From contig NZ_CP038255.1 of the NCBI RefSeq assembly GCF_004564135.1, positions 2,777,501 through 2,841,500 on the forward strand: a stretch of 64,000 bases of DNA. Reading direction: 5' to 3'. This document shows positions 51,674 through 55,860 of this stretch, in pieces. The position numbers and the translations under genes are program-made. Position 1 is the stretch's first letter, and each line of letters begins with the position of its first letter. The notes beneath the pieces were generated by a model. The model was not told the DNA's origin. It saw only the letters and a program-made list of their open reading frames with translations, and searched no databases. Source of the stretch: Terasakiella sp. SH-1. Lineage in GTDB: Bacteria; Pseudomonadota; Alphaproteobacteria; Rhodospirillales; Terasakiellaceae.

Positions 51674-52927
51674 ATGAAAAAGCTTCTGCTGGTCGAAGAT
51701 GTTAAATTCTTCAACGCCCTGGTTGAAAAACACGTCAAACGCAACCTTGATGTCGAGGTTGTGTCCTGCACCAGTTATCAGGAAGCTGTGACAGCCCTGA
51801 AAGGCGGGGGGAGTGAATATTTCCTCGCCATTTTGGACTTAAACCTTCCCGATGCCCCAGATGGGGAAATTGTTGATCTGGTGATTGGCTACGATGTCCC
51901 TGCTGTTGTTTTCTCTGCCCATTTTAGCGAAGACCTGCGCGATCAGATCCTGTCCAAGAACGTTATTGATTATGTGGTCAAACAAAACCCGTCCAGTCTG
52001 GACTATCTGGTCTCCCTGATTTCACGGCTTTATTACAATCGCAATTACAAAGTCCTGATTGTGGATGATTCCACAACCGCACGCAAATATGTCTGTGACC
52101 TGATGACACGCTATCAATTTCAGGTTCTTGAAGCAAAAGACGGCTATGAAGCGTTAAAGGAACTGGAACAGCATCCTGATATCAAGCTTGTTATTACAGA
52201 TTACAATATGCCGGAAATGGATGGGTTTGAACTCACCCGTGAAATCAGGCGGCAATATCCCAAACATAAAATCGGCATTATCGGACTATCCACCGTAGGC
52301 AGTAATGTGCTGTCCGCCAAGTTCATCAAGAACGGGGCAAATGATTTTCTAAACAAACCGTTTTTGCGCGAAGAGTTTTTCTGCCGGGTCTGTCAAAATG
52401 TCGAACTGATCGAATATATGGATAACCTGAAATCTGCGGCCACCCATGATTTCCTGACCGGCTTGCACAATCGTCGTTTCTTGCAAGATATCGGGAATAA
52501 TCATATTGCACGCGCCCAACGCGATGGTATCCCCATCAGTGTCGCCCTACTAGACGTGGACCATTTTAAAAATGTCAATGACACTTACGGCCACAGCGCA
52601 GGTGATGAAGTCTTGATCCAGTTAGGCGAATTACTCAATGAACGCTGTCGTCGCTCAGACGTTCTGGCCCGCTATGGCGGGGAAGAAATCTGCATCATTG
52701 CCAATAACCTGCCGGAAGAACACAGTTTCCGCCTGTTTGACGACCTGCGCCAGCTGATTGAAGATCATAATTTCAATATTGGCGACAAACAAATCAAGAT
52801 CACCGCCAGTATTGGCTTTTGCACAATCCTTGAAAGCCGCTTTGAAGCCATGATTGATCATGCCGACAAGGCCCTTTATGTCGCCAAACATGCCGGGCGC
52901 AACCGGGTTTCCCAATATCAACCCTAG
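51674..52927 (+). CDS. two-receiver diguanylate cyclase (PleD-like)
   Basis: A 417-residue response regulator. Receiver 1 (about 3-125) has phosphoacceptor Asp in 'AILDLNLPDAP'; receiver 2 (about 128-245) in 'VITDYNMPEMDG'. The GGDEF domain (about 255-417) has 'THDFLTGLHNRRFL', 'LLDVDHFKNVNDTYGH' and the active site reading GGEEI rather than GGEEF. An inhibitory I-site RxxD (RRSD) lies five residues before it. It should make c-di-GMP when phosphorylated. Its TAG stop (52925-52927) is completed by the first G of the inverted-repeat element downstream, so the native C-terminus may have been changed. Confidence 0.93.
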   Translation: MKKLLLVEDVKFFNALVEKHVKRNLDVEVVSCTSYQEAVTALKGGGSEYFLAILDLNLPDAPDGEIVDLVIGYDVPAVVFSAHFSEDLRDQILSKNVIDYVVKQNPSSLDYLVSLISRLYYNRNYKVLIVDDSTTARKYVCDLMTRYQFQVLEAKDGYEALKELEQHPDIKLVITDYNMPEMDGFELTREIRRQYPKHKIGIIGLSTVGSNVLSAKFIKNGANDFLNKPFLREEFFCRVCQNVELIEYMDNLKSAATHDFLTGLHNRRFLQDIGNNHIARAQRDGIPISVALLDVDHFKNVNDTYGHSAGDEVLIQLGELLNERCRRSDVLARYGGEEICIIANNLPEEHSFRLFDDLRQLIEDHNFNIGDKQIKITASIGFCTILESRFEAMIDHADKALYVAKHAGRNRVSQYQP

Positions 52928-52985
52928 GGCGTAAACTTATAAAATACATCTCTGCCAAACAAGTCTATTTTATGAGTTTACGCCC
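52927..52985. mobile_element. 59-bp TA-flanked inverted-repeat element, copy 1
   Basis: GGGCGTAAACTTATAAAATA at the left and TATTTTATGAGTTTACGCCC at the right are 20-bp terminal inverted repeats (one mismatch) around a 19-bp middle. TA stands on both sides. The form fits a non-autonomous element of a TA-targeting transposase (IS630/Tc1-like or an IS5 subgroup), but no transposase is in the window. It forms the last base of the stop codon of both neighbouring convergent genes. Confidence 0.75.
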
Positions 52986-54277
52986 TAATCCTCATACGAT
53001 TTGAGCAATACTTTCTTGGCCTTGCGCAACCCTGTCCATAACAGGAAGGCCACAACAGGCACAGCAACCCCTGTCGCCAAATCAGGATTGATCGGCACAC
53101 CTAACGCCTTGATGCCCTTAAGCCCATAGCCCAACAAGCCAATCAGGTAATAACTGATTGCCACTACTGACAAACCTTCCACAGTTTCCTGTAAGCGCAA
53201 TTGCAGGCCAGCACGCTTGTTCATGGTTTCCAGCACTTCCTGATTTTGCTTTTCCAGTTCCACTTCCACACGTGCACGCAACAAGCTGGCGACACGGGTG
53301 ACACGGCGCGACAAAAAATCCTGACGGGTGGCAGTATAATCACAGGTTTTCATCGCCGGAGCCATGCGCCGTTCCAGTGTCTCAGATAAGGTGGGCAAGC
53401 CTTCCATACGTTCTTCACGCAGGTCATGCAGCCGTTGCTGAACAAGGGCATAATAGGCTTTTGTCGCGCCAAAACGATAACTGTTCTTTGCAGAAATCTC
53501 TTCAATTTGTGCAGCCAGCATGGAGAGTTCTTCCAACAAGTCCCCATCTTTATATTCCCCACTTTTATGGGCCATGCGAGAAGCAATTTTGGCAACATCT
53601 TCGTCAATGCGGCGAACATGCGGGCTGGCTTCACGGGCCAACGGCAACCCCAACAAGGCCATAAAGCGATAGGTCGATATTTCCAACACCCGCTGAACCG
53701 TACGTCCGGCCTGACGGTCCGTCATGGAAATATCTCGCATGAGAATGCGGCTAAAACGGTCCTCATGCACACGCAGATCTGTCCACATTTGTGCTGCCCC
53801 ACCTGCGACCTCGCAACCGATGTAGCTGTTGCCCGCAAAATAACGCGATATTTCAGCGGGTTTCCTGCCCGGCGCATTCTTGTGTTCAAGCTCCAGATGC
53901 ACCGCATTAATCACCTGACCGGGCATTTTCTTCAACCAGTCTTGGGAAACCAGTTCAATAACCGGATGCAAGAAAGGCTCTTCACATTCTTCTTCACGAA
54001 AAAAGCTGTAAGTGGAAAATTCCGTATGACGCTCCCAACGAATGCGAAACGGGCCAAGATCACCAATAAAATGGGTCGCCTTTTGCGGTGGGGGTGGCAC
54101 ATCATATTTCTCACATAACAAGGCCAAATGGGCACGTTCACGCTCAACCCCGTTTTCCCCACTCATCACCGCAATATGGGAAATCCGTTCAGGCACATTT
54201 AACGGAATATATGGACGTGCGTGAATTTCACGGACCAACATGTCACGTAATGGATGTTCCTGCCCCAGGTGCGTCAT
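52985..54277 (-). CDS. DUF3422 family membrane protein
   Basis: A 430-residue protein. A long soluble N-terminal part opens 'MTHLGQEHPLRDMLVREIHARPYIPL', with 'ISHIAVMSGENGVERERAHLALL' and 'FRIRWERHTEFSTYSFFRE'. A helical region follows, then two membrane helices near the C-terminus ('VVAISYYLIGLLGYGLKG' and 'LATGVAVPVVAFLLWTGL'). The domain is common in alpha- and betaproteobacteria; its function is unknown. The ATG at 54277 has AAGGAAT upstream. The TAG stop (52987-52985) is completed by the element at 52927-52985. Confidence 0.85.
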   Translation of the reverse strand: MTHLGQEHPLRDMLVREIHARPYIPLNVPERISHIAVMSGENGVERERAHLALLCEKYDVPPPPQKATHFIGDLGPFRIRWERHTEFSTYSFFREEECEEPFLHPVIELVSQDWLKKMPGQVINAVHLELEHKNAPGRKPAEISRYFAGNSYIGCEVAGGAAQMWTDLRVHEDRFSRILMRDISMTDRQAGRTVQRVLEISTYRFMALLGLPLAREASPHVRRIDEDVAKIASRMAHKSGEYKDGDLLEELSMLAAQIEEISAKNSYRFGATKAYYALVQQRLHDLREERMEGLPTLSETLERRMAPAMKTCDYTATRQDFLSRRVTRVASLLRARVEVELEKQNQEVLETMNKRAGLQLRLQETVEGLSVVAISYYLIGLLGYGLKGIKALGVPINPDLATGVAVPVVAFLLWTGLRKAKKVLLKSYED

Positions 54278-54376
54278 TATTCCTTGCCCTTCATATCTTG
54301 AGATAAAAATGGTATTACCACTATAATTAACCTTCTGACAAGAAGTAATCATCATTTTCTTTCATTGGCCTGTCTA

Positions 54377-54435
54377 GGGCGTAAACTCATAAAATAGACT
54401 TGTTTGGCGGAGATGTATTTTATGAGTTTACGCCC
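54377..54435. mobile_element. 59-bp TA-flanked inverted-repeat element, copy 2 (inverted)
   Basis: Perfect 20-bp terminal inverted repeats, GGGCGTAAACTCATAAAATA and its complement, enclose 19 bp that are the reverse complement of the copy 1 middle with one difference. Flanked by TA (54375-54376 and 54436-54437). It lies between the DUF3422 start and rsmB, in opposite orientation to copy 1. Confidence 0.75.
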
Positions 54436-54513
54436 TAATCGCCTTTTGCGTGGCATTTGAACAGAAACATGTTATGAAACCGCCACTCACTCACCAGATA
54501 AGGATTCAAAATC

Positions 54514-55860
54514 ATGAGCGACGAACAACAAAAGTCCGCCTACGGCCTTGGCCGTGCGGCCCGATTGAATTTGGCTCATGAAATCTTGAATGAACTGGCT
54601 GAAACAGGTCGTCCCTTAGACCGCATTTTATCAGGGCGTTTTCGCCATCTTCAAGATCAGCTTGAACGCCGGGATCGCCGGGACCTGGAAACCCGTGTCA
54701 GGTCCGTGCTTCTTCATTATCGCCGTTTATTGTGGTGGTTAAAACAGGTCAAACTGGCCCCTAATATGCGCACCATGCTTTTGGCCGATATGATCCTTAA
54801 TGCCAAAGCCGATATTGATCAGCTGCAAAAGCTCTGCACCGGGGCACATAACCGTATGGATATGATGCGCAAAGAAGAAATTGCCGCCCTAAAAGGCTTG
54901 ATTGGCAAGGAAATCAACGCCCCGGATATGAGTGAGGCCATCCAGTGTGAATGCCCGGACTGGGCCGAAGCTGGTTTCAAACAAGCCTTTGGCGATAAGT
55001 TTGGTGACGAAATGACTGCTCTCAACAGCAAAGCCACCAGTGATTTTCGCATCAACACCCTGCACGGCGATGTGCAAACCGTACAAGACAGCTTGGCGGC
55101 ACAAGGGTTTAAGACAGAACCCTGCGCCCTGTCCCCCATTGGCCTGCGCCAAACAGAAAGCGGCGGACCGATCCTCTCAGAAACCGAAGCCTTTCGCCAA
55201 GGCTGGATTGAAGTTCAGGACGAAGGCTCCCAACTTGTGGCCTTGATGGTTGGGGCCAAGAAAGGCATGCAAGTGGCTGATTTCTGTGCCGGGGCAGGTG
55301 GAAAAACACTGGCCTTGGCCGCAGATATGGAAAATGGCGGCCATCTGGTTGCCTGTGATGTGCACAGTAAGCGTCTACAACGTGCCAAAACCCGCCTGAA
55401 ACGTGCTGGCATCGTCAATGCCCAGCGCATTGTGCTGGAAAACACTTATGATAAATGGGTGAAAAAAAGCAAAGGTAAGTTTGACCGGGTGCTTATTGAT
55501 GCACCGTGCAGTGGCACGGGAACATGGCGTCGTAACCCGGATTCCAAATGGTCCAAAGATGAAAATGACCTCAAGGAACTGATTGCCCTGCAAGCTGATA
55601 TTTTAAAAAGTGCGAACCGTCTGGTGAAAAGCGGTGGTCGGCTGGTTTATGCCACCTGTTCCTTGCTTCCTGAAGAAAATGAACAGCAGATTGACGCTTT
55701 CTTAAAAGAGTACCCTCACTTCAAGCGCCTAAATGCCAAAACGGTCTGGGAAGAACGCATCCCTGCCCCTTACCCCGGCCAAAGCGAGGACTTCCTGCGC
55801 CTGACCCCGCATCAGCACGGCTGTGACGGCTTTTTTGCCTGTATGTTAGAACGGGACTAG
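54514..55860 (+). CDS. rsmB: 16S rRNA (cytosine-967-C5)-methyltransferase-like protein
   Basis: A 448-residue RNA m5C methyltransferase. The N-terminal NusB-like helical region includes 'AARLNLAHEILNELAETGRPLDRIL'. The catalytic part has 'GWIEVQDEGSQLVALMVG', SAM motif 'VADFCAGAGGKTLALAADM', and the two catalytic cysteines in 'IDAPCSGTGTWRRNPDSKW' and 'VYATCSLLPEENE'. In E. coli RsmB methylates C967 of 16S rRNA; the assignment to the same base is inference. Ribosome-binding site AAGGA. Confidence 0.88.
   Translation: MSDEQQKSAYGLGRAARLNLAHEILNELAETGRPLDRILSGRFRHLQDQLERRDRRDLETRVRSVLLHYRRLLWWLKQVKLAPNMRTMLLADMILNAKADIDQLQKLCTGAHNRMDMMRKEEIAALKGLIGKEINAPDMSEAIQCECPDWAEAGFKQAFGDKFGDEMTALNSKATSDFRINTLHGDVQTVQDSLAAQGFKTEPCALSPIGLRQTESGGPILSETEAFRQGWIEVQDEGSQLVALMVGAKKGMQVADFCAGAGGKTLALAADMENGGHLVACDVHSKRLQRAKTRLKRAGIVNAQRIVLENTYDKWVKKSKGKFDRVLIDAPCSGTGTWRRNPDSKWSKDENDLKELIALQADILKSANRLVKSGGRLVYATCSLLPEENEQQIDAFLKEYPHFKRLNAKTVWEERIPAPYPGQSEDFLRLTPHQHGCDGFFACMLERD

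Follow-up and report, generated by a model that had tools for sequence, protein, structure and literature searches.

In the present work we analyze two 63-bp inverted-repeat elements that flank a gene of the DUF3422 family (PF11902) in Terasakiella sp. SH-1, located in a 64-kb stretch, here termed the window, of its 3.83-Mb genome (G000, one contig). At this locus, a gene for a response regulator with a GGDEF domain, i.e. a diguanylate-cyclase gene (51674..52927, + strand), converges with DUF3422 (52985..54355, - strand), which in turn is divergent from a gene for an RsmB/F-type 16S rRNA methyltransferase (rsmB; 54514..55860, + strand). Copy 1 of the element (52925..52987, in - orientation relative to a 271-bp element found elsewhere in the genome) fills the gap between the convergent GGDEF and DUF3422 genes, and copy 2 (54375..54437, + orientation) is placed inside the divergent DUF3422/rsmB intergenic region. 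The length of 63 bp counts the flanking TA. Based on the genomic family to which the copies belong, and on comparisons to related species, we propose that each is very probably a minimal miniature inverted-repeat transposable element (MITE), derived by deletion from a 270/271-bp non-coding element, and that the pair represents two insertions of one such derivative.

The two copies are inverted relative to each other, with 63-bp arms that are 97% complementary and lie 1387 bp apart, and they differ at 2 of 63 positions. Each is bounded by terminal inverted repeats of 22 bp including the TA, located at 52925..52946 (+) and 52966..52987 (-) in copy 1 and at 54375..54396 (+) and 54416..54437 (-) in copy 2. 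These are perfect in copy 2, while the left end of copy 1 carries a single mismatch, T for C, at 52938; the 19-bp middles are reverse complements of each other with one difference. The inverted copies, their terminal repeats and the matching middles had all been recognized in an initial annotation of this DNA, and are confirmed here at the same places. With up to 3 mismatches allowed, the window contains the end 22-mer four times, compared to a mean of 0.00 and a largest count of 0 in 100 shuffles. On both strands, each 63-bp copy folds far more stably than its shuffled versions (z -7.3 to -9.5).

Copy 1 also terminates both of its neighbors. The TAG stop of the GGDEF gene (52925..52927, +) consists of the TA and the first G of the element, the TAG stop of DUF3422 (52985..52987, -) stems from the opposite end, and the stem base of the copy 1 fold includes the stop codon. 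When the flanks are joined, a single CTAA remains, which provides TAA to the GGDEF gene and TAG to DUF3422; apparently, the insertion of copy 1 divided this CTAA, until then the end of both genes. Overlaps of 4 bp of this sort are common, being present in 3 of 12 convergent open reading frame (ORF) pairs of the window, as judged from crude ORF calls. The earlier description of a pair framing one gene needs correction in that copy 1, rather than lying next to that gene, constitutes the entire gap between two convergent genes and supplies both stops.

The elements are members of a larger family. A search of G000 for the end, with up to 3 mismatches allowed, yielded 36 matches, and none for the reversed pattern used as control, so other copies of the end, as sought by the initial annotation, do exist. 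The matches resolve into 15 complete elements (nine of 271 bp, two of 270 bp, one each of 177 and 171 bp, and the two of 63 bp) and six solitary or truncated ends. A sixteenth complete element, missed by the pattern, was found by BLAST: a 117-bp deletion derivative at 448481-448597, in which the same base is absent from both arms. In total, G000 therefore holds 16 complete elements of 63-271 bp, 11 of them full length (270/271 bp), and, to judge by their length and sequence, all are non-coding. The first 46 bp of the MITE, fused to its other end, give the 63-bp sequence, with TATTT at both breakpoints (by eye); besides the pair flanking DUF3422, no further 63-bp copy was detected in G000 by pattern or BLAST searches. 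Among 60 related genomes, seven contain the end with no more than 2 mismatches, namely G000, five congeners and G025. Both ends are TA in 17 of the 21 complete elements of G000, G001 and G005, and one end base differs in the other four (L037, L038, L086 and L081).

The six solitary or truncated ends (G000:C1 897302, 1923729, 2747383, 2909438, 3279851 and 3453755) are in some cases near gene ends or terminator-like hairpins (by eye), and probably represent decayed MITEs. A known structured RNA was rejected as identity of the elements: Rfam searches of four loci at E up to 1 returned one true tRNA and two matches far below the cut-offs, one of which (MIR1507) falls within the MITE. The exact gapped 63-bp pattern, with no mismatches allowed, gave no hit in a collection of named genomes from which this genome and its close relatives may be absent. 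In the open-access PMC papers searched we found no description of this MITE family, which does not prove that none exists, no paper on DUF3422, and no paper joining insertion sequence, stop codon, TAG and YTAR.

Judged from sequence, the ends of the family are those of IS5-family, IS427-like insertion sequences, which duplicate TA and are about 850 bp long. Scanning named genomes for the end identified 68 stretches, mostly from Alphaproteobacteria by title, and in 38 of these a tblastn match to the IS5 transposase of Terasakiella pusilla DSM 6293 (G002) lies within 1.2 kb; T. pusilla itself accounts for seven of these 38, and in five the match covers no more than 34 residues. Immediately outside the end dinucleotide, all 38 transposase-associated stretches have a pyrimidine. 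T. pusilla carries an insertion sequence with these ends in multiple copies; of its seven such ends, six are within 500 bp of a contig end, and one complete copy is present, 852 bp long with both TAs and a TTAA target, its right end having 5 mismatches to the pattern. It contains two reading frames matching DUF4096 (PF13340), DDE_Tnp_1 (PF01609) and NCBIfam transpos_IS5_3 (NF033580), a two-frame layout that we take to be a mark of the IS427 group. In a further set of loci (L152 7293-7589; L098, L101, L116, L142; L126, L136, L151, L158), paired ends about 300 bp apart were observed in a Hyphomicrobiales metagenome-assembled genome (MAG), and a Sphingomonadales and a Rhodospirillales MAG have ends about 75-95 bp from an end of the stretch; none has a match to the T. 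pusilla transposase, and they are possibly other elements sharing the ends.

The elements are also selective in their target. YTAR is occupied by 20 of the 21 complete elements of G000, G001 and G005, compared to 28% expected from the TA sites outside ORF bodies in the window (100 of 357; P 1.4e-10), and by 21 of 22 when the 117-bp element, located in TTAA, is included. The lone exception is a 63-bp element in G005 (GTAA), where the sister species has CTAA. The same target has been given for IS5 (PMC10359306). As YTAR covers every TAA or TAG that follows a pyrimidine, an element starting with TAGG restores a TAG stop upon insertion. An element makes the stop of a neighboring ORF in 9 of 21 cases, with 4.0 expected (P 0.01, uncorrected); the count is 6 of 15 for G000 alone (P 0.049), and 10 of 29 with 4.0 expected when the YTAR restriction is lifted (P 0.004). 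For this comparison, the null was drawn from the single 64-kb window, in which ORFs were called crudely, and the observed cases were counted by hand.

An intrinsic terminator would need a T-run after its stem, which is absent from both copies on both strands, and was therefore rejected as the nature of the hairpins. A terminator scan of 52700-54700 gave no site (2.4 expected by shuffling), allowing loops of 3-8 bases only and hence being blind to the 19-base loop present here. Even so, having a strong hairpin at the two stop codons may influence mRNA 3' ends.

We then consider the DUF3422 locus in six Terasakiella genomes (G000-G005, one per species), for which trees of RsmB and of DUF3422 were computed. 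DUF3422 and rsmB are divergent neighbors in all six; the rsmB-side copy is absent from five, and both copies are absent from four, in which the rsmB-DUF3422 linkage is kept. The nearest relative of G000 is G001 (support 82/81 and 96/95), and the DUF3422 tree leaves the remaining forks of the genus open. The copy 2 region aligns to element-free G001 with both flanks matching. In G005, one related 63-bp element is located at the DUF3422 stop, where it supplies both stops as well; its orientation is the reverse of that of copy 1, and the gene on its far side is MeaB-like (by eye) rather than GGDEF. The sister of G005 is T. pusilla (both trees, support 100/99). It lacks an element at this stop, and CTAA is precisely the overlap between its DUF3422 and MeaB-like ORFs, giving a clean empty site that matches the G005 element. 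No complete element is present at the DUF3422 stop in G001, G003 or G004; in G004, TAGGCCT is found next to the equivalent position, perhaps by chance or perhaps as a remnant. The simplest reading is that the elements at the DUF3422 stop in G000 and G005 represent two independent insertions. Such a coincidence is striking, since some 6,000 YTAR sites per genome are available, as extrapolated from about 100 outside ORF bodies per 64 kb; chance, a hot spot or a benefit are all possible.

Taken together, the shared ends, the copy family, the YTAR targets, the element-free sites and the stops formed by TAG ends, all of which were compared directly, are in agreement with the following sequence of events. 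The 270/271-bp element would have been mobilized in trans by an IS5-family (IS427-like) transposase, with duplication of TA within YTAR. Internal deletion between the TATTT microhomologies would then have generated the 63-bp form, which presumably entered the CTAA closing both the GGDEF and DUF3422 genes and hopped again 1.4 kb away, inverted, upstream of DUF3422, although either insertion could be the first. The inverted arrangement would then be the chance orientation of the second insertion, with no switch involved. In this explanation, of which we are highly confident as a whole, the elements make up a new MITE family of the IS5/IS427 type, a kind already known.

Alternatively, the element at the DUF3422 stop may be ancestral to the genus, selectively maintained as a 3'-end hairpin acting in both directions, and lost in other species. 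This is compatible with the related 63-bp element exactly at the DUF3422 stop in G005, the finding of no other 63-bp copy in the six genomes by pattern or BLAST searches, the strong fold with the stop codon within the stem base, and the TAGGCCT of G004, be it chance or remnant. However, the sisters on both sides have no element (G001 for G000, and T. pusilla for G005), demanding four losses on the RsmB tree. In addition, the downstream neighbor differs (GGDEF versus the MeaB-like gene), the G005 element points the opposite way, the two junctions are offset by about three codons at the end of the protein (by eye), and T. pusilla has an empty shared CTAA. We consider this scenario unlikely. The initial annotation had also suggested that recombination between the inverted copies could flip DUF3422, and such recombination is physically possible across a 63-bp inverted repeat with 97% identity. 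Yet the divergent arrangement is shared by all six genomes, including the five without the rsmB-side copy and the four without both, and a flip would point DUF3422 at rsmB, a state not seen in any of them, as sampled with one genome per species (recombinase genes were not sought). An invertible gene is consequently very improbable, and the opposite orientation of DUF3422, for which the annotation proposed to compare relatives, does not occur in this set. Its further suggestion, movement of both elements and DUF3422 as one composite transposon, fits two copies of one element around one gene with TA on both outer sides but is hardly credible, as DUF3422 adjoins rsmB in four genomes with neither element and has a single match in G000, both flanks of copy 2 align to element-free G001, and each copy has a YTAR site of its own. 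Hence, the conserved divergent neighborhood of DUF3422 and rsmB supports neither inversion nor block transposition.

The original proposal, that the copies are miniature inverted-repeat elements from a family that duplicates TA, is, in contrast, supported by the 36 genomic matches, the IS5 transposases beside the same ends elsewhere and the element-free sites in relatives.

The full-length elements display a further property. The 271-bp form is predicted to fold as a single cruciform-like structure (RNA -144.1 kcal/mol, z -16.8; DNA -86 kcal/mol, z -16.0), of which the 63-bp copies retain only the base. In 16 full-length copies from three species, both sides have changed in 18 of 107 pairs of the structure, which was predicted from the same alignment, compared to 1-3 such pairs in slid controls, and 48 doubly changed cells compare to 12.8 in shuffles. 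When 15 copies of G000 and G001 are measured against the consensus of their own genome, 11 double changes are found, all 11 restoring Watson-Crick pairs, with 0.22 plus 0.34 (about 0.55) expected under independent arms; both transition and transversion types are represented. Homogenization of the arms by template switching seems more likely than selection on each copy, we infer, because the copies are dispersed in unrelated places. The family thereby offers a natural data set to test template-switch repair of palindromes in bacteria.

A number of observations weigh against, or limit, these interpretations. The 11 double changes stand alongside 34 unmatched single changes and are partly non-independent (one recurs in a second copy, two neighbor each other within a copy, and one equals the state of the other species), corresponding to about 8 events in our reading; moreover, the covariation leaves selection on RNA and template switching of DNA unseparated. 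The excess of stop-forming insertions is modest. A common origin of the two copies is drawn from two observations, the common deletion junction and the finding of no other 63-bp copy in G000. Relatives are element-free at both places, but the dinucleotide at the copy 2 join in G001 is not TA, and the GGDEF/DUF3422 junction of G003, the counterpart of the copy 1 region, has a different 9-bp spacer; the element-free sites also come from other species, with 71-78% protein identity. Finally, no intact parent transposase was found in G000, and present-day mobility is for this reason not established: a DUF4096 search, covering G000, G001 and G005 and not IS5 transposases without DUF4096, gave two partial matches in G000, one over the cut-off with an internal stop and one under, and a 110-residue transposase query gave one short fragment only. 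The same DUF4096 search found none in G001 and G005, and 20 element loci together with the window have no convincing transposase match (best E 0.5), for which reasons the MITE looks orphaned in these three genomes. Thus, of the points that the initial annotation had held decisive, no intact parent was found in the genome, but IS5 transposases lie beside the same ends elsewhere, including T. pusilla, and other copies and empty sites were found. In our judgement, a missing intact parent in the same genome is common for an old MITE family and not disqualifying.

As the target motif overlaps stop codons and the ends restore them, insertion at such sites may cost genes little. More speculatively, YTAR elements with TAGG ends might treat the shared stops of convergent genes (CTAA) as a safe harbor, with both stops rebuilt as TAG and a hairpin added to both 3' ends. 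The 63-bp form could then have reached the shared stop of DUF3422 independently in two species because the hairpin is tolerated or beneficial at that site, with template switching maintaining the match between the arms; we regard this as a conceivable but rather doubtful extension. What appeared to be a gene-flipping cassette becomes a detailed example of the way in which small IS5-driven elements may establish themselves in compact genomes.

The surroundings of the elements contain additional features. A perfect palindrome, TGGTANTACCA, is located between DUF3422 and rsmB at 54310-54320, once in the window (0.04 expected); it recurs in 14 of 160 loci, every one being the DUF3422/rsmB locus of the six Terasakiella genomes (also L052-L056), and looks like a conserved, putative operator for DUF3422 or rsmB. 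Upstream of copy 2, an 11/12 sigma-70-like promoter match is present on the + strand at 54298-54327, in a scan that overall is at chance (3 found, 2.4 expected); given this candidate promoter, the leader of the rsmB transcript could include the 63-bp hairpin. The DUF3422 start at 54355 is that of the mechanical ORF, and the true start is probably near 54277 (MTHLGQEHPLRD), which resembles the MTYLG... starts of relatives (by eye). The MeaB-like ORF (by eye) directly faces DUF3422 in T. pusilla and G005 (L082, L092), and in this genome (49423-54355) it is separated from DUF3422 by MerR-like, methyltransferase-like and GGDEF ORFs (MeaB, MerR and methyltransferase by eye).

Compared to known systems, the elements resemble REPINs, or REP doublets, which are likewise very short, palindromic and mobile and lie between genes. 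REPINs rely on RAYT transposases, and the elements described here differ by their IS5 ends and TA duplication. With insertion sequences of the IS427 group of the IS5 family in Alphaproteobacteria, such as ISPaes1 and ISPbe2 of Paracoccus, which are described as having an IS5-type transposase, a length of about 850 bp and mostly 2-bp direct repeats (PMC3281130), the MITE has about 20 bp of the end in common. The T. pusilla insertion sequence, 852 bp with TA on both sides, fits the 830-865 bp and 2-bp repeat given for the group, although one member, ISPha1, is listed with a 4-bp repeat (PMC3281130). The group name, used here as IS427-like, follows from length, repeat and transposase type, as set by description rather than by ISfinder comparison. 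Unlike these insertion sequences, the window elements have no transposase, and beyond the ends they show no likeness to the T. pusilla sequence (by eye). MITEAba12 of Acinetobacter is likewise short and non-coding, with ends of insertion-sequence type and presumed mobilization in trans, and one of its copies supplies the stop of a host gene; it differs in having 16-bp ends, 9-bp duplications and ISAba12 as parent (PMC6382973). Finally, the paired changes of the arms parallel the maintenance of stems by template switching, in which the arms of inverted repeats are homogenized and inversion of the spacer is also described (PMC8794818, PMC8604942), there in RNA genes and yeast coding DNA, and here in the copies of a bacterial MITE.

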